Notes under the pieces: generated by a model | What the model saw: only the letters and a program-made list of their open reading frames with translations | Database searches by the model: none | Told to the model about the DNA's origin: nothing | Origin: Streptomyces violaceusniger | GTDB taxonomy: Bacteria; Actinomycetota; Actinomycetes; Streptomycetales; Streptomycetaceae | Assembly (NCBI GenBank): GCA_005405945.1 | Contig: BJHW01000001.1 | Location: 8,866,001-8,930,000 of the forward strand | Direction of reading: 5' to 3' | Length of the DNA: 64,000 nt | Part shown: positions 24,328 to 31,550 of the stretch, in pieces | Layout of the letters: each line of letters opens with the position of its first letter | Numbering within the stretch: position 1 is the stretch's first letter | Translations under genes and position numbers: made by a program

Positions 24328-24579
24328 ATGGATCGCATATGCGGGAGCCGCGTCTACAGCGGCATGCCGGCGAGGGACCTCGGCAGCGAGGGCTGGCACA
24401 AGCCGTGGAGCGGTGGCAATGGGGGAAGCTGCGTCGAGGCGATGAGACTGAAGGACGGACGGGTGGCGCTGCGCCAGTCGACCGATCCGGACGGACCGGC
24501 CCTGATTTACACCCATCTGGAGATGAAACGCTTCATCCAGGGGGCCAAGGCCGGGGAGGCGGACTTTTTGTTTCTGTGA
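24328..24579 (+). CDS. DUF397 domain protein
   Basis: An 83-residue small acidic partner of the XRE protein. Family features: the W-x-K/P-S segment (GWHKPWSGGNGGSCVEAMRL), the D-x-x-ALRQSTDPDGPAL turn, and a C-terminal hydrophobic strand EADFLFL. The start is ATG 24328, 3 bp after the XRE stop, with AAGGAGAT at 24314-24321 as ribosome-binding site. Its 3' end overlaps the open frame of the convergent radical SAM gene (24533-25531) by 47 bp. DUF397 proteins are proposed to antagonise their XRE partner, but the mechanism is unproven. Confidence 0.9.
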   Translation: MDRICGSRVYSGMPARDLGSEGWHKPWSGGNGGSCVEAMRLKDGRVALRQSTDPDGPALIYTHLEMKRFIQGAKAGEADFLFL

Positions 24580-25531
24580 CGTCCTCCGCGACGTCCGGAC
24601 CCGCGACGCTCATCGTGACCAGGGGGAGCGAGGGGGAAACAGTGTGACCGACCGACCGTGAAGTGACCGGCGGGGGCGGCGCCGGGACGCGTTCCAGTAC
24701 ACCGCCCGCGAACACGTCGTACAGCGGAAGCGACTCCAGGTGCACATAGCCGATGTGACAGTCGCAGACCGCCAGCGGACACCGGCGGGGCCGTAGCGCC
24801 GCGCGGTACGACCCGTCGTAGAGATTGCCCAGTTCGGCGGGGACGAAATGGCAGCGGCGCACCGTGCCGTCGCCGTCCACCGAGATCACCGAGGCGCCGG
24901 TCCGGCATGGCAGACCGGCGCTTCGGTGGGGATGGCGGCTGTAGCCGAAGAGCGGGTCCAGCGCGGTCCACTCGGCCGCCTCGGCGTCGGTGTAGGTATG
25001 GCCCTCGGCCGCGTTCACCCACAGATACACCCGCTCGGGGAGGTCGGCGCGCAGTCTGCGGGCCTGGTCCAGATGAGCGGGCAGCCCCACGATGCCGACG
25101 CTGTGGCGCACCCCGCGCGCGGCCAGCTCCCGGCACTTGGCGAGGAACCGGTCGTACGGCGTCTGGTCCGGGTGGTAGGTGCACCACAGGGCGAGGGTGT
25201 CGGGGTCGGCCTCGGCCGTCCAGCCGGTACGGCAGCTCAGATTGGTCTGGATGGCGACCCGCGCGACGTGCGGCAGATGGCTGAGCTCGATGAGCGCCCG
25301 GCGGTACCAGGAGCGCACCAGCCCCTCGCCCCACGGGGTGAACAGCACCGACAGCCGGTCGCCGGTCTGCTCCGCCACCCAGGCCGTGAACCGCTCCAGC
25401 GCGGCGCGGTCGGCGCGCAGCCGCTCCGGGCTGTCCCGGCGCTTGGCGAACGGGCAGTACGGACAGTCGTAGTCGCACGAGGCGAGCGGACCCCGGTAGA
25501 GAATGGTCAAGTCCACGCCCGACTCCCTCAC
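24533..25531 (-). CDS. STM4011 family radical SAM protein
   Basis: Fifth and last gene of the STM4011-4015 operon. The cluster motif is CDYDCPYCPFAKR near residues 19-31, after DLTILYRGPLAS. Further Cys residues occur in RTGASVISVDGDGTVRRCHF and RRCPLAVCDCHIGY, resembling auxiliary-cluster ligands. GTG 25531 overlaps the STM4012 stop (GTGA). Of 332 residues, about the last 50 (after FAGGVLERVPAP) are low-complexity and overlap the DUF397 gene tail to tail. The natural end may be earlier, hidden by another base error. The PGAP-type family name is recognised; the reaction is unknown. Radical SAM enzymes of this kind could modify peptides or small molecules. Confidence 0.85.
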   Translation of the reverse strand: MRESGVDLTILYRGPLASCDYDCPYCPFAKRRDSPERLRADRAALERFTAWVAEQTGDRLSVLFTPWGEGLVRSWYRRALIELSHLPHVARVAIQTNLSCRTGWTAEADPDTLALWCTYHPDQTPYDRFLAKCRELAARGVRHSVGIVGLPAHLDQARRLRADLPERVYLWVNAAEGHTYTDAEAAEWTALDPLFGYSRHPHRSAGLPCRTGASVISVDGDGTVRRCHFVPAELGNLYDGSYRAALRPRRCPLAVCDCHIGYVHLESLPLYDVFAGGVLERVPAPPPPVTSRSVGHTVSPSLPLVTMSVAGPDVAEDVTETKSPPPRPWPPG

Positions 25532-26886
25532 TTCAGATCGTACGCGGCCATGGCGGCGCGCACGGCGGGCGAGAACAGCTCGGGGCCGAGCGCGTCGGAG
25601 TGCGCCAGCCCCTCGGGGGACAGCCGCAGCCGTCCCGGGGCCGCGTCCGGGTCCAGCCAGCCGCGGCCTGCGAACCGGGCCAGCTCGGCGGGGAAGTCCT
25701 CGGCGGGATCGGTGCCGAACCGGGCCCGGTACTCCGCCGCCGCCATCCCCTCGGCCTGGAGGACGGACTGCAGCAGATGGCGTCGGCGGGCCTCGTCACC
25801 GGTCATCCACCGGCCGTGCTCGGCGCGGGCGAAGTCGGCGGCGGGCCGGGAGACGTAGTCGTCGACGATGCCGCGTATCTCCCGCATGTCGACCGCGTAG
25901 TCGAACGAGTAGTGCAGGGCGGAGGTGTAGGAGCGGGCGCCACAGCCGAGGCCGACCATGCCGTCCGTCTGGCAGGCGTGGTCCTCCCCGCCGGTGGCGG
26001 GCGCGCCCGGGGCGCGGAACATCCGCATCGAGACCTGCTCATAGCCGTGGGCGAGCAGCTGGTCGCGGCCCGCGCGGTACAGCCGCAGCCGCCGCTCGTC
26101 CCACTCCGGGTCCCCCTCCGCCTCCGGCTCCCCGGCCTCCTTACGGCCGAGCCCGGTCAGCGGGCGGACATAGAGGGGGTAGAGATACAGCTCCTCCGGG
26201 CGCCAGGCGAGGGCGGCGTCCAGGGAGTGGCGCCACGTGTCCTCGGTCTGACCGTCGATGCCGTAGATCAGATCGATGTTGAGCACCGGGATGCCCGCCT
26301 CCCGGATCCGGCCCAGCGCCGCCTCCACATCGGCCCGGCGCTGCGGGCGCACCGCCGAGCGCGCCTCCGCGTCCACGAAGCTCTGCACCCCCAGGCTCAG
26401 CCGGGTGGTGCCGCGCCCGGCCAGCACCGCGAGCCGGTCGGCCGTGGCGGTGGCCGGGGACGCCTCGACCGAGAGCGGCACGGCGGCCAGGTCCGCGCCC
26501 ATCCCCTTCTCGGCGATGTCGCAGAGCCGCTCCAGCTCGGCCGCCTCCAGGAACGTGGGGGTGCCGCCGCCGAACGCCGCGGCGGCGAACCGGGCCTCCT
26601 CGCCGAGCGCTTCGCGCACCGCACCGGCCTGCCGCTCCAGCGCGTCCAGATAGGCGGTCACCAGCCCCTCGGGGGCGCCGATCCGGGTGAAGAGGTTGCA
26701 GAAGCCGCAGCGCACCTCGCAGAAGGGGATGTGCAGATACAGCGACAGCGCGTCCTTCGGCTCGGCCGCCCACAGCTCGCGCAGCGCGGGGCGCTCCACC
26801 AGCGGCCGGTAGGCGGTCTTGTGCGGATAGGCGTAGACGTACGACTGGTAGGGGCGGACGGTGGAACCGAGCGTGCTGATGTTCAT
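25528..26886 (-). CDS. STM4012 family radical SAM protein (HemN/HemW-like)
   Basis: A 452-residue enzyme like HemN/HemW. The radical SAM motif CEVRCGFCNLF lies after LSLYLHIPF, the signature of coproporphyrinogen dehydrogenase-like proteins. Then come AFGGGTPTFL (SAM-binding), RLSLGVQSF and NIDLIYGIDGQTEDTW. A HemW-type C-terminal domain follows (GLGCGARSYTSALHYSF, then RRRHLLQSVLQAEGM). ATG 26886 overlaps the stop of the sulfatase-like gene (ATGA). Homology does not mean haem synthesis: family members next to STM4011/4013/4014 are uncharacterised. The open frame extends upstream in this sequence only because the preceding gene is frameshifted. Confidence 0.9.
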   Translation of the reverse strand: MNISTLGSTVRPYQSYVYAYPHKTAYRPLVERPALRELWAAEPKDALSLYLHIPFCEVRCGFCNLFTRIGAPEGLVTAYLDALERQAGAVREALGEEARFAAAAFGGGTPTFLEAAELERLCDIAEKGMGADLAAVPLSVEASPATATADRLAVLAGRGTTRLSLGVQSFVDAEARSAVRPQRRADVEAALGRIREAGIPVLNIDLIYGIDGQTEDTWRHSLDAALAWRPEELYLYPLYVRPLTGLGRKEAGEPEAEGDPEWDERRLRLYRAGRDQLLAHGYEQVSMRMFRAPGAPATGGEDHACQTDGMVGLGCGARSYTSALHYSFDYAVDMREIRGIVDDYVSRPAADFARAEHGRWMTGDEARRRHLLQSVLQAEGMAAAEYRARFGTDPAEDFPAELARFAGRGWLDPDAAPGRLRLSPEGLAHSDALGPELFSPAVRAAMAAYDLK

Positions 26887-27706
26887 CGGGCCTCGAGGAA
26901 GAAGTGGGTGTACGGCACGGTCCAGACGGCCTCGTGGCCGAGCCGGTGGCCGGTGTAGCCGTCGTCGCCGTACGCGGTGCCGTGGTCGGAGCAGACGATC
27001 GCGAAGGCGGGGCCGCGGCGGCCCAGGGCGGCCAGCAGCCGGTCGACATGGCGGTCGACGTACTCCAGGGCCGCGGCGTGGGTGGCGCGGGTGTCGCCCG
27101 CCTCGCGGGTGGCGCCGGGCAGATGGAACCAGTTGGGCTGGTGCAGCGCCGAGACATTGACGAAGAGGAACAGCCGGCGGCCGGGGTCCAGACCGGCGAT
27201 CACCTTCTCGGCGCGGTCGATCTGCGCCTCGAAGGAGGTGGGGGAGGTGACGCCGAACTCCGGCTCCCAGTGGCTCTCCCGGAAGTAGCCGGGCAGCACC
27301 GAGCCCAGCGGCCCCCGCTGGTTGAAGAAGCCGACCCCGCCGACGCACACCGTGTGGTACCCGGCCGCCGCGAGCCCCGACACCAGATCGGGGGTTTCGA
27401 AGACATAGGTGCCCGCCGCGGTGGTCTCGCTGCCCGCGAAGCGGGCCGCGAACAGCCGGCGGTGCGGTCCGGGGCGGCCGGGGTCGGCAGAAAGCCCGCG
27501 AACATCGCCTGGTGGGAGGCGTAGGTGAAGCTGCCGGGGGCGTGCCGCTCGTCCCAGACGCCGCCGGGCATCCGGGCGCTGAGGTGCGGCGTCCGCCCGG
27601 CCGCCGCCAGCTCGGCCGCCACGTCGTAGCGCAGGGTGTCGAGGGTGAGCAGCAGCAGATCGTGGCTGCCCACCACCTCGTTCATGTCGGGCTCAGACAG
27701 CGGCAT
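26883..27706 (-). CDS. STM4013/SEN3800 family sulfatase-like hydrolase (internal frameshift)
   Basis: Alkaline-phosphatase/sulfatase superfamily member. N-terminal metal-binding strand LLLLTLDTLRYDVA, then SFTYASHQAMFAGFLP around the usual nucleophile position, and C-terminal metal ligands in AFAIVCSDHGTAYGDDGYTGHR. There is no Cys/Ser-x-Pro-x-Arg sulfatase signature, so it may be a phosphohydrolase or phosphotransferase instead. The frame breaks at about 27458-27464; one extra base restores DRTRRLFAARFAGSETTAAG and 274 residues. ATG 27706 has the ribosome-binding site AAGGAGG; an alternative ATG at 27685 would give an ATGA overlap with the upstream gene. No signal peptide is visible, so it acts in the cytoplasm. 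Confidence 0.85.
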
Positions 27707-28848
27707 CCCGATGGGCCTCCTTCCCCGGCCCGGAGCACGGCGGCGACCTGGGCCGCGTAGGTGTCAAGACCCTCCGCGCCGCTGCCGGGCAGACCGGTCA
27801 GCCGGGGCAGCAGATCGCCGAAGGCGTTGACCTCGCCCACGGCGAACCGCCGCCACCCCGGGCCGGGCAGCAGATCCACCCCGACGCACAGGGTGCGCGG
27901 GAAGCGCTCCGCCGCCCGCTCCGCGGTGCCCAGCACCCCGCTCCAGGCCACCCCGGCCGCCTCCGCCGCGGCGCGCGCGGCGGCCAGATCGCCGCGCACC
28001 CCGCCGAGATGGAGATTGGTCATGGGGGAGCGGCTGGTGCGCACCACGGCATGGGTGGCCCTGCCCCCCACCACCACGACCCGCAGATCGGCCACCCGCT
28101 TGTCCTGGGTGGCCTTGGGCAGCCAGCGCTCGATGTGCAGCCCGTCCGGCGCCAGGGTGTCGATGATCGCGGCGACCTCCGCCTCGCTCTCGTACCGCCG
28201 CACCCGCAGCGAGTTGAACAGCCGGCCGTCCTCCGTGCGCTCCACGGAGGTGGTGGCCCGCACCCGGCCGGGGCCCGCCGTCTCCACCGCGAGCACCCCG
28301 GACGCGGACGAGCCGTGGGCCGGCTTCACGAAGGCGCGCCGCAGCCCCGAGGTGCCGAGCGTCGCGCGCACATCGTCCCAGCCGCGCACCGGCGGCGCCT
28401 GCGGCCCGGAGGTCGGCGAGGGCGGGACCGGGACCCCCGCGCCGTCCAGCACCCCGTGGCACAGCCGCTTGTCGAACAGGACGGCCAGCTCGCCGGGGTC
28501 GTTCAGCAGCGTGGCCCCGGCCGAGCGCGCCGCCGCGGCGACGCCCCGGACGGCCTCGGTGAACCGCGCGTACCAGCGGCCGGTGCCCTCGACCCGGGTG
28601 GGGTCACAGGCGCCGCGCAGCAGCCACTCCACCTCCTCGTCCTCGCCCGGCGAGTCGATCCGCACGGTCTCGGCGGGCTCGAACACGGCGCCGTAGGTCA
28701 GCACATCGCGCCAGGCCAGCACCCGGGGCGCGGGCAGTCCGGCGGCCACGGCCGCGGCGGTGAACATCTCCACCCGGCGGCCGCCCGCATTGCCGACCAC
28801 GGCGAAGCGGGGACCTTCCCGGTCGGGTTCTCGGTGTGGCATGGGCAT
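27682..28848 (-). CDS. STM4014 family protein (ATP-grasp-like)
   Basis: A 388-residue protein with an ATP-grasp-like layout. After RFAVVGNAGGRRVEMFTAA the central part holds NDPGELAVLFDKRLCHGVLD, AFVKPAHGSSASGVLAVE (nucleotide-binding Lys and glycine loop), ERWLPKATQDKRVADLRVVVV, and a late metal-ligand strand RFAVGEVNAFGDLLPRL. ATP-grasp enzymes form amide or ester bonds through acyl phosphates. ATG 28848 overlaps the STM4015 stop (TGATG). The last 25 bp overlap the start of the sulfatase-like gene. Operon context with two radical SAM enzymes suggests tailoring of an unknown carboxylate substrate. Family recognised; function unknown. Confidence 0.82.
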   Translation of the reverse strand: MPMPHREPDREGPRFAVVGNAGGRRVEMFTAAAVAAGLPAPRVLAWRDVLTYGAVFEPAETVRIDSPGEDEEVEWLLRGACDPTRVEGTGRWYARFTEAVRGVAAAARSAGATLLNDPGELAVLFDKRLCHGVLDGAGVPVPPSPTSGPQAPPVRGWDDVRATLGTSGLRRAFVKPAHGSSASGVLAVETAGPGRVRATTSVERTEDGRLFNSLRVRRYESEAEVAAIIDTLAPDGLHIERWLPKATQDKRVADLRVVVVGGRATHAVVRTSRSPMTNLHLGGVRGDLAAARAAAEAAGVAWSGVLGTAERAAERFPRTLCVGVDLLPGPGWRRFAVGEVNAFGDLLPRLTGLPGSGAEGLDTYAAQVAAVLRAGEGGPSGCRCLSPT

Positions 28849-29800
28849 CACTCGGAGACGGCCGTGTAGCGGAACACTTCGCCCTCGTCCTCGTCCTGGT
28901 CGCCCTTCTCGGACATCACGACCTCCACCCCGGACGGCTCCAGGGCCTCCCGCAGCCGCTGCTCCATGGGCGCGGAGAAGAAGTTGTGGTCCAGATCGAT
29001 CCACTTCAGATGGGTCAGCGGCTGGCCGTCGAGCAGCGCCGCCGCGCCCTCGTCGCCGAGCACGCCCATGGACAGGTCGAGGCATTCGAGCTGGGCGACC
29101 ACGGGGCCGCCGCCATGGCGGCCGCGATCTCGTCCTGGATCTCGCTGTTCTGCACGCCCAGGTGGCGCAGGGCGGGGAACCGGCCACCGCTCAGGATCGG
29201 GGCCAGGTCGGCGACGGTGGCGTCGCCCCCGTACTCCTCCACGCCGAGCCACATCTCCAGGCGCTCGAGCGCGGGAAGGTCGCTGGCGGCGACCCCGCGC
29301 ACCACCGCGCCGGGCAGCCCGCCGGTCTCGAAGCGGAGCGTACGCAGGCCGGCGTGGCCGACGGCGGGGAAGGACAGCCCGCTCCCACCGCGGACGCCCA
29401 GCTCGCGCAGGCCCGGGTAGGCGTGGAGGACCGGTGTCACATCGGACTGCTGGATCCAGGAGATCTCCGACTCCTCCGCGGTGATGTCGCCGATGAACAC
29501 CGCCTCCAGCGAGGTCAGCCGGTCCTTGGCCATGACGAGCTGCTCGATGGCGTCGTCGGCGTCGCCGTCGTAGGTCTCGCCCCACATACCGATGATCAGC
29601 GCTCGCACCCGCGCGGGGGCCACCGTGGCGAGGAAGCGCTGGAAACGCCCGTCGAAACCGCCCTCCTCCTCGTCGACATAGGGGTTGTAGGAGATCCGCC
29701 AGGCGACGGTGTCCGTCTCGGGCAGCACGACTTCCTGGCCGGGCGTGGGGAAGTCGAACGCGGGAAGACCGTGCAGTTCTTCCAGGTGGTAGACCGACAT
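28848..29800 (-). CDS. STM4015 family leucine-rich-repeat protein (frameshift near the C terminus)
   Basis: First gene of the STM4011-4015 operon. After an N-terminal domain (HLEELHGLPAFDFPTPGQ, then VAWRISYNPYVDEEEGG) come irregular leucine-rich repeats of bacterial type: TSLEAVFIGDI, PGLRELGVRGGSGL, AGLRTLRFETGGLP, PALERLEMWLG, PALRHLGVQNSE, AQLECLDLSMGVLGDEGA, THLKWIDLDHNFFS. The frame breaks at the plus-strand GGGG run 29103-29106; one extra base restores AAAPVVAQLECLDLS and 317 residues. ATG 29800 is preceded by AGGAGA. No signal peptide, so it is a cytoplasmic scaffold or recognition protein, perhaps presenting a substrate to the operon's enzymes. That role is inference. Confidence 0.85.
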
Positions 29801-30032
29801 GAGCGGTATCTCCTGATGTGTTCGCGTGGGCGTGCCTGATTCCGAATGGCGTGCGAAGAGTTGTACCAAGCGCCACCGACAGCCGGCCCGGCGCCCCGCG
29901 ACGCCGCCGGGCCGCGCGTGCTCGCCGCGCTGCCGGACGGCGTTGTCGGTGCCTCCCCCTAACGTCATGACCATCGACCGGACCCCGCGGGGTGCGGTGG
30001 GTCCAACAGGGCTGCGGTGAAAGGGAATTGGC

Positions 30033-30359
30033 ATGTACCGACAGGGCGACGTCCTGATCGTTCCGGTGGCCGCCGAGGCGCTGCCGCGGGGCATCGACGC
30101 GCTGCCGCGGCAGCCGAGGGACGGGCGGGGTCGGCTGGTGCTGGCGCTCGGCGAGGTGACCGGGCACGCCCATGCGGTGGTCGGGCCGGGCACGCTGGTG
30201 CGCGAGTCGGGCCCGTTCGGCGTCTCGTATCTCCATCTCCCCGACGGCGGGCGGGTGGTGCACGAGGAGCACGCGGCGATACCGCTGCCCAAGGGCTGGT
30301 ACCGCGTGGTGCGCCAGCGGGAGTACGTGCCGGGCGCCGTGCGCGTCGTGGCGGACTGA
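30033..30359 (+). CDS. small protein of unknown function (QGDVL-type)
   Basis: A 108-residue protein diverging from the STM4015 operon. It starts MYRQGDVLIVPVAAEALP and contains GEVTGHAHAVVGPGT, then VVHEEHAAIPLPKGWYRVVR and ends PGAVRVVAD. The sequence looks all-beta, and the two conserved His-containing turns (GHAHA, HEEHAAI) resemble cupin-like metal or ligand sites. I recognise it as a widespread conserved hypothetical but know no function. ATG 30033 is preceded by GAAAGGGAA at 30018-30026. The DUF6745-like gene follows after 18 bp, and the two are likely co-transcribed. Confidence 0.75.
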   Translation: MYRQGDVLIVPVAAEALPRGIDALPRQPRDGRGRLVLALGEVTGHAHAVVGPGTLVRESGPFGVSYLHLPDGGRVVHEEHAAIPLPKGWYRVVRQREYVPGAVRVVAD

Positions 30360-30377
30360 GAGCGGGGGAGCGAAGCG

Positions 30378-31550
30378 ATGACGACGGCAACGGCGAAGGC
30401 GATGGCGACAGCGGTGGAGAACGGCATGAGCGGTGTGGACGCGCTCGCGGACGAGGACCGGGCGGCGCACTGGCGCACGGTCGCCGCCGCCACCGGCCCG
30501 GCCGACCGCGAGGCGGCCGAGGCGGGCCTCCGCCGCGCCTATGAGCGGGCCGGGCTCACCGCGCCCGAGCGGATCGTGTGGGCCGGTTCCCCGCTGGCGG
30601 CCACGGCGGCCGCGATGCTGCTGACCGGGCAGGAGGAGCGGCTGCCCCGGGAGGTCGCCGAGCGGGCGGCGGACATGCTGCGGGCGGCCGGGGTCGAGCC
30701 GGTCGCGGGCGGCGTGGGCGCATCGGTGCGGGAGGCCGTGCGCACCCGCCCGTGGGCGCGCGCCAGGCAGCGGCTCCACGATGCCCTGGGCCCGGCCGGC
30801 TGGGCCGGGCGGTGGGCGCTCGCGGCGGCGCCGCTGTGGGAGGTCACCCGCGCCCTCACCGAGCGCGTCCGCACCGGGGTCGTCGAGGCCCTGGCGCCGG
30901 ACCCGGACTCGAGCCGGGGGACGGCCGTCCGGCTCGCCCTGCTGGACGCGGTGCTGGGCCAGCACGACGCGCCCTGGCTGGCCGCCGTGGCGGACGGGAC
31001 GGAGTCCGACCCGCTGGCCGGCCTCGCCGCGGTCGCCCGCGCCGCCGGCTGGTGGTGGCCGTACGAGAAGGCCGTGATCGTGGCGGAGCGCCCGGTCGAA
31101 CTGCACCGCGACGAGGCGGGCCGTCTCGACCGCGGCGACGGTCCCGCGCTCGCCTTCCCCGACGGCTTCGCGCTGTACGCCTGGCGGGGCATGCCGGTGC
31201 CCGCGGCCTTCCTCCAGCAGCTCGGCGAGCTGACCCCGGACCGCATCCGCGCGGAGGAGAACGCGGAGCTGCGCCGGGTGATGCTGGAGCACTACGGATA
31301 CGAGCGCTATCTCGACGAGTCCGGGGCGCGGCCGGTGCACCGCGACGAGACCGGGGTCCTGTGGCGCATCGAGCTGGACGGGGACGAGCCGGTGGCGATG
31401 GTCGAGGTGGTCAACTCCACGCCGGAGCCGGACGGTACGCACCGCACGTACTGGCTGCGCGTGCCGCCCCGGGTCCGGACCGCCCGCGAGGGCGTCGCCT
31501 GGACCTTCGGGGTGGACGCCGACACCTACCGCCCCGAGCGCGAGACCTGA
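30378..31550 (+). CDS. DUF6745-like protein of unknown function
   Basis: A 390-residue protein. The N-terminal half is helical and Ala-rich (TAPERIVWAGSPLAATAAAM, EVAERAADMLRAAGVEP). The C-terminal half has the recurring pattern seen in DUF6745-type proteins: VAERPVELHRDEAGRLDRGD, LAFPDGFALYAWRGMPVP, IRAEENAELRRVMLEHYGYERYL, VHRDETGVLWRIE, YWLRVPPRVRTAREGVAWTF. Such proteins are often found with leucine-rich-repeat proteins, which fits the divergent STM4015 gene. No catalytic motif or membrane segment is seen. ATG 30378 is preceded by GGGGGAG at 30363-30369. The family name is from memory of the motif pattern. Confidence 0.72.
   Translation: MTTATAKAMATAVENGMSGVDALADEDRAAHWRTVAAATGPADREAAEAGLRRAYERAGLTAPERIVWAGSPLAATAAAMLLTGQEERLPREVAERAADMLRAAGVEPVAGGVGASVREAVRTRPWARARQRLHDALGPAGWAGRWALAAAPLWEVTRALTERVRTGVVEALAPDPDSSRGTAVRLALLDAVLGQHDAPWLAAVADGTESDPLAGLAAVARAAGWWWPYEKAVIVAERPVELHRDEAGRLDRGDGPALAFPDGFALYAWRGMPVPAAFLQQLGELTPDRIRAEENAELRRVMLEHYGYERYLDESGARPVHRDETGVLWRIELDGDEPVAMVEVVNSTPEPDGTHRTYWLRVPPRVRTAREGVAWTFGVDADTYRPERET

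Follow-up and report, generated by a model that had tools for sequence, protein, structure and literature searches.

The PafBC activator turns on genes through the RecA-NDp motif (available sections of PMC6789036), making contact with the −26 element and inserting itself so as to separate the promoter from the sigma domain by which −35 is usually contacted (available sections of PMC11804915). An example of the PafBC/RecA-NDp regulon is the Streptomyces macrodomain gene SCO6735 (accessible part of PMC5087735). In Deinococcus, the repressor DdrO of the IrrE/DdrO radiation-desiccation regulon works with the RDRM motif (excerpted text of PMC8072749), for which the consensus TATGYYHTTARCRKA has been published (excerpted text of PMC8533742). 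Two gene groups are relevant as well: the genes STM4011-STM4015 of Salmonella and Paenibacillus, and a pair of phage genes, phrog_27831 and phrog_31813, present in LMM01 (gp175-gp174) and in prophiGD102-1 (gp37-gp38).

We analysed a 64,000-nucleotide stretch of the Streptomyces violaceusniger genome (the window) in which a homologous pair, a small protein followed by a DUF6745 protein in the same order as in the phages, stands divergently beside the same five STM genes, in the same order as in Salmonella and Paenibacillus. The Salmonella and Paenibacillus operons differ in having neither the small-DUF6745 pair nor a recognised damage box. The phage pair differs in that no STM genes are annotated beside it and in that many phage DUF6745 proteins carry tetrapeptide or tripeptide arrays, whereas the window protein has none. 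With the PafBC/RecA-NDp regulon the locus shares its promoter type, which is common to the pair and, less exactly, to STM4015, and we found no literature report of the pair or the STM genes as members of that regulon. Likewise, these genes are not named in the available parts of the IrrE/DdrO papers (PMC8533742, PMC8072749), with which the Deinococcus loci share the RDRM at the pair promoter. In the PMC literature we found no description of the seven-gene unit; the STM4011-STM4015 names occur in two papers, and DUF6745 was not named in any paper found. The radical SAM gene vnz_31145 of S. venezuelae, which is induced 20-fold by mitomycin and was likened by its authors to enzymes repairing thymine cross-links, was considered as kin and not adopted. 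New are the resemblance of both promoters to a damage-type promoter, the two WYL genes near a Pup-ligase-family gene and the RDRM in Deinococcus; the original prediction had noted neither the damage-type promoters nor the phage copies. The pair is probably part of a DNA-damage response not yet described. The locus consists of the following features:

24533-25531, minus strand: STM4011-family radical SAM protein (NF038073, 421.1 bits, cut-off 200)
25528-26895, minus strand: STM4012-family radical SAM protein, HemN-like (NF006067, 646 bits, cut-off 380)
26883-27706, minus strand: STM4013/SEN3800-family hydrolase (sulfatase type), frame broken near 27469
27682-28863, minus strand: STM4014-family protein, ATP-grasp-like (NF038074, 447.8 bits, cut-off 175)
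28848-29800, minus strand: STM4015-family gene, weak leucine-rich-repeat match, frame broken near 29103
29801-30032: shared divergent intergenic region, 232 bp
29860-29882, minus strand: second, inverted promoter unit before STM4015, two mismatches (read from sequence)
29943-29965, plus strand: RecA-NDp (PafBC-type) promoter before the small gene, exact consensus match
30033-30359, plus strand: small, mainly beta protein of 108 aa (ORF; phrog_27831, E 3.7e-13)
30378-31550, plus strand: DUF6745 protein of 390 aa (PF20530; phrog_31813, E 3.1e-9)

Both ORFs of the pair are as originally predicted, one of 108 residues with GHAHA and HEEHAAI motifs and one of 390 residues, and the STM4015 start codon at 29800 (minus strand) confirms the predicted divergent spacing of 232 bp. 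The assignment of the larger protein as DUF6745-like was borne out by its Pfam match to PF20530, which covers residues 184-390 (E 1.5e-115; 384 bits against a cut-off of 27). In the divergent operon, which reads STM4015-4014-4013-4012-4011, the STM4011, STM4012 and STM4014 proteins score above their curated NCBIfam cut-offs. STM4013 falls into two frame pieces scoring 115 and 252 bits against a cut-off of 250 for the whole protein, and the single piece of the interrupted STM4015 frame that was scanned scored 94.7 bits against a cut-off of 275. Each of these two genes lies in two frames and shows a one-base difference from L020, the one relative (94-96% identical at the locus) against which the indels were read. 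A Pup-ligase-family gene of the same assembly (G000:C1:3141435-3142696) is likewise split over two frames, so the breaks in STM4013 and STM4015 are probably sequencing errors rather than decay.

The original prediction had suggested that the seven genes form one functional island. We examined 160 Streptomyces genomes, each at least 95% complete, and found the small protein in 60, STM4014 in 70 and both in 58. STM4014 was thus present in 58/60 genomes with the small protein compared with 12/100 without it (Fisher P 7e-29, uncorrected for kinship), and chance co-location of the pair and the STM operon was rejected. The two genes were no more than 6 kb apart in 57 of the 58 co-carrying genomes; the remaining genome (G406) had no STM4014 at the locus and one 2.2 Mb away. 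As for the two genomes with the small protein only, the match in G307 was weak (E 9.6e-7), and the copy in G413 contained a stop and lay beside DUF6745 and STM4011 remnants. Twelve of the 70 STM4014-bearing genomes were without the small protein. Among 246 sampled Actinobacteria genomes, six held the small protein, six STM4014, seven DUF6745, and four the small protein together with STM4014; in all six genomes with the small protein, DUF6745 was within 1.2 kb of it.

We also compared the best 80 genome loci of at least 546 confirmed relatives, nearly all of them from Streptomyces, Kitasatospora and relatives, with one from Nocardia. All seven genes were present at 70 of these 80 loci. STM genes were found at 77 and were divergent from the pair in every case (77/77); the three loci without them were L035, L040 and L068, the last being a 3.6-kb contig. 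DUF6745 was found at 74 of the 80, and in five of the six loci without it a contig end lay within 0.3 kb of the small gene; the sixth, L047, has long flanks and still shows no DUF6745. In 30 of the 80 loci (L022-L034, L044, L047 and others) the STM4015 matches extended over more than 1.7 kb, as tandem copies would, and STM4015 was annotated in two copies in L014, L019 and L203.

Alignment of the divergent intergenic regions revealed two inverted copies of the element TGTC(A/G)G-N10-TA. Using a regular expression written once the alignment had been viewed, both units were found in order in 58 of 72 regions (shuffle mean: 0.02), and the spacers were 10 and 10 in all 57 paired units measured. By its sequence, the element equals the RecA-NDp promoter, whose consensus we take to be TTGTCRGTG-N8-TANNNT. 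Its short spacing agrees with the contact of PafBC at the −26 element (PMC11804915, sections available). Upstream of the small gene at the same best 80 of at least 546 loci, the consensus was matched with 0, 1, 2 and 3 mismatches in 31, 6, 33 and 10 cases, respectively, compared with 0, 0, 5 and 53 among 800 shuffled upstreams that preserved single-base composition only. Upstream of STM4015 (77 of these 80 loci) there was one mismatch in 26 cases, two in 33, three in six and more in 12, so that 59/77 were within two mismatches, the number found in the window copy. Outside this set, all seven tested small genes (11 found) of another family of the order were within two mismatches, the small gene of Nonomuraea had a site with one mismatch, and G053 (L198) had one with three. 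Both divergent promoters thus resemble, as far as sequence can tell, the actinobacterial RecA-NDp/PafBC DNA-damage promoter. One promoter type common to both units predicts their coordinated expression, and co-regulation of the pair and the STM operon appears well supported.

When the whole window genome was searched with the same consensus, 21 exact sites (L205-L225) were obtained, compared with none for the reversed control, and the site at 29943-29965 is one of them. Ten of the 21 downstream ORFs, chosen once their translations had been viewed, were scanned. They comprised recA, uvrB, dnaE, an AlkZ-like glycosylase and a PhoH protein, further GNAT, AAA/RuvB-like and YjbR proteins, and two ORFs with no Pfam match. 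The pafB and pafC genes are expected near the Pup-ligase gene. In the window genome, a Pup-ligase-family gene has two WYL genes at a distance of about 2 kb; these are separated from each other by about 1 kb and would, by their position only, be pafB and pafC. According to a LexA study of S. venezuelae, the PafBC motif of mycobacteria did not seem, in a first search, to be conserved there (available text of PMC9380542). The exact sites at recA, uvrB, dnaE and the AlkZ-like gene point to a putative PafBC regulon in Streptomyces.

In all four Deinococcus records, the small gene was preceded by an RDRM within 2 of 15 mismatches of the consensus (as given in the available parts of PMC8533742). No other RDRM within two mismatches occurred in the 73 kb of these four records, and shuffled sequence yielded 54 such sites per 2.93 Mb. 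Unlike the pair, STM4015 had no RDRM upstream in the three Deinococcus tested. A search for SOS-type/LexA boxes in front of the genes likewise found none in Methylobacterium, Skermanella, Salmonella, Paenibacillus or the Microcystis phage LMM01. The predicted link to DNA damage is therefore strong in two phyla and was unseen in the other lineages examined. We consider it very probable that the pair and the STM operon are one module, and we have similarly high confidence that this module is damage-inducible in actinomycetes, as its promoters predict. We favour, with somewhat more confidence than doubt, the fuller reading that the seven genes are a single DNA-damage-inducible module made up of a two-protein effector and an accessory radical-SAM/ATP-grasp operon.

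The pair also occurs in viruses, where we compared the best 80 of 334 confirmed relatives. A DUF6745 match lay beside the small gene in 62 of these 80 viral loci; the other 18 comprised 16 that ended no further than 1 kb from the small gene and two with long flanks (L156, L163). No STM genes were found in the flanks of any of the 80, so these phage copies have no linked accessory operon, and none carried, ahead of the small gene, a RecA-NDp site with at most one mismatch. Twenty-seven of the 80 loci (e.g. L104, L106, L131, L147) ended no more than 1 kb beyond the small gene, inside or close to DUF6745, where repeat arrays may break the assembly. An apparent fusion of the pair in five viral ORFs was rejected: the small gene was out of frame with the ORF start in 5/5, indicating an overlap artefact of G+C-rich DNA. 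Among the carriers are Microcystis phages, with a uracil-DNA glycosylase adjoining the pair in LMM01, and a prophage of Mycobacterium abscessus whose pair lies close to ERF and RepA-like genes. From the frequent clusters of flanking viral proteins, ten representatives were scanned; two had no PHROG match and eight did, six of them to functions of DNA metabolism (primase/helicase, RecT, two helicases, ParB-like, Erf) and the other two to terminase and integrase.

These phage copies raise the possibility that a phage pair serving anti-defence, superinfection or host takeover was captured by some bacteria, which use it against phages or prophages, its damage control being inherited from phage life. 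Damage control is also common among phage-derived genes. The occurrence of the pair in viral contigs, in Microcystis phages and in the Mycobacterium prophage near ERF/RepA-like genes is consistent with such an origin, as are its patchy distribution in Streptomyces (60/160) and the strong differences between phages in their DUF6745 repeat arrays. However, neither protein matched any family of PADLOC-DB 2.0.0 at E up to 1, the bacterial locus is conserved and comprises a five-gene operon as well as damage-type promoters specific to the lineage, and the RecA-NDp promoter is missing from the viral copies (0/80 of the best 80 of 334, within one mismatch). We consider a role in phage conflict unlikely.

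In a plasmid collection, STM4014 accompanies the small protein in seven of the nine records that contain the latter, and the small protein accompanies STM4014 in seven of 12. The seven genes lie together in three Deinococcus, with the pair and the operon convergent, in Methylobacterium currus, where they are co-directional, and in two Streptomyces, where they are divergent. Each unit was also found without the other: over the stretch covered, D. ficus and Skermanella carry the pair but no STM genes, and the Salmonella and Paenibacillus records carry the STM operon without the pair. Such separate occurrences would be expected if two independent damage-inducible units merely shared a divergent promoter region, as would the finding that, among 12 STM operons lacking the pair, 8 possess a RecA-NDp-like promoter of their own, within two mismatches. 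Yet the Deinococcus units converge, and hence have no shared promoter, and in Methylobacterium all genes run in the same direction, while the seven genes stay together in both; the 58/60 nesting in Streptomyces likewise speaks against co-location only, which we regard as improbable. Membership is constant while arrangement varies, so a shared divergent promoter alone is insufficient as an explanation. The predicted seven-gene island was upheld in that its members co-occur beyond chance, in three phyla and three arrangements, with both promoters of one type. As a separate observation, a VWA-domain gene lies beside the pair in D. ficus (L202:10363-12222) and beside the STM operon in D. taeanensis (L203:16987-18291).

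The AlphaFold2 model of the small protein (mean pLDDT 90.6) is all-beta except for short helical turns, in line with the all-beta look noted in the original prediction. Across 72 aligned sequences, 18 columns spread along the whole length, from residue 3 to 108, are invariant (R3 Q4 G5 D6, L37 A38, G40 E41, T43 G44 H45, H47, H77, E79, H80, Q95, V106 and the C-terminal D108), and the GHxH and HxEH histidines probably bind metal or form an active site. The model had no convincing match in the PDB, either with Foldseek (none at E 0.001 or better) or with VIA-align, whose best match, considered with regard to a cupin fold, reached Z 2.5 (rmsd 3.2 over 61 residues). A sequence search of the PDB with both pair proteins yielded no match at E up to 1, and a viral-model search yielded one at E 3.6e-5, an uncharacterised phage protein. 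The last residue was exactly D in 160/160 extracted copies (VAD in 139); this D is no part of the search patterns, which lean towards the GE(V)TGH and QRE motifs, but it is part of the profile that extracted the copies. In the DUF6745 protein, the model (mean pLDDT 93.3) has a mainly helical N-terminal part with a 55-residue helix at 118-172, and again no convincing PDB match was found (Foldseek, none at E 0.001 or better; VIA-align, best Z 3.2); weak rows for SSB and Pur-alpha were at noise level and were set aside. Of 121 DUF6745 ORFs, 118 reach a stop codon within their stretch; in 117 the last two residues are E or Q followed by S or T, and the one exception (L121) stops earlier, inside the domain. 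For both proteins, C-termini so nearly fixed suggest possible recognition by a partner.

These features bear on the proposal of a RiPP-like island, in which the radical SAM and ATP-grasp enzymes would modify the small protein as their precursor or carrier. Members of two radical SAM families are indeed encoded beside the pair, as is an ATP-grasp-like protein, and the nearly fixed C-termini could suit a C-terminal ligase. However, a leader and variable-core pattern is absent, the 18 invariant columns extending over the full length in 72 sequences; the predicted fold is compact; and the same C-terminal D is found in the 80 viral loci (best 80 of 334) without an STM gene in their flanks. The suggestion in the original prediction that the small protein could be a carrier or a precursor is thus not supported by conservation throughout, by the predicted fold or by the viral loci, and a RiPP-like island seems to us quite improbable.

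In phages, DUF6745 proteins often contain long arrays of short repeats such as DSVG/ASVW, DQLG/DQLW, SQVR, GAVD and AATR, or of tripeptides; genes with arrays occur in viral loci within L101-L179 and also at L226:4071-5516. At the DNA level, 7 of 12 arrays (L103, L107, L126, L129, L130, L169, L178) show nearly all their variation at two positions four bases apart, with the other codons differing between arrays, and those of L101, L108, L111, L114 and L134 depart from this pattern. The adjacent variable residues are reminiscent of a readout code. In our reading of the model, helix 118-172 of the window protein would match the site of the arrays in many phage DUF6745 proteins. Leucine-rich repeats were read by eye in the Deinococcus and Methylobacterium DUF6745 proteins, their Pfam support being sub-threshold in Deinococcus (E 0.011 at best) and none in Methylobacterium. 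One could imagine the pair as the core of a DNA-damage and phage-replication system, with the repeat array of DUF6745 as an exchangeable surface for adaptable recognition, of short units with variable residues in phages, leucine-rich-like in Deinococcus and Methylobacterium and a long helix in Streptomyces, with the small protein as a metal-dependent effector and the operon as its damage-induced activation; we think this very improbable. That the RecA-NDp and RDRM matches are artefacts of chance or relatedness and the island responds to something else is most improbable: the sequences are related, the shuffles hold single-base composition only and the regular expression is post hoc, but the RecA-NDp consensus came from outside the data set, its 21 sites against 0 genome-wide include recA and uvrB, and the small gene carries an unrelated damage motif in a second phylum.

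For the damage-inducible module that we favour, we propose the following course of events. As single-stranded DNA accumulates, PafBC would direct RNA polymerase away to both inverted promoters of the RecA-NDp type, and the pair and the STM4015-4011 operon would then be co-expressed; in Deinococcus, the pair would instead be freed from DdrO repression at the RDRM. Given the constant pairing of the small gene with DUF6745, the DUF6745 protein and its small beta partner would form one two-component effector, with the histidines of the small protein probably as a metal-binding or active site and both C-termini recognised by a partner. Because phages carry the pair, in several cases among replication and recombination genes, this effector may act on damaged or replicating DNA or on proteins associated with it. 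We propose the two-component effector and its action on DNA tentatively. In the weakest step, the STM operon, with its two radical SAM proteins, ATP-grasp-like protein, hydrolase and leucine-rich-repeat-like protein, would serve as an accessory pathway, either to modify the effector or to synthesise a molecule needed by it; we hold this role to be doubtful.

With these results, two families that have neither an assigned function nor a convincing counterpart among solved structures, and five families mostly named by number, gain a shared and directly testable DNA-damage context, which rests on two unrelated regulatory motifs in two phyla. The findings also bear on whether Streptomyces has a PafBC response, a question left open in the available text of PMC9380542. 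Since phages carry the same pair, it is a candidate for a shared part of phage and host genome maintenance.
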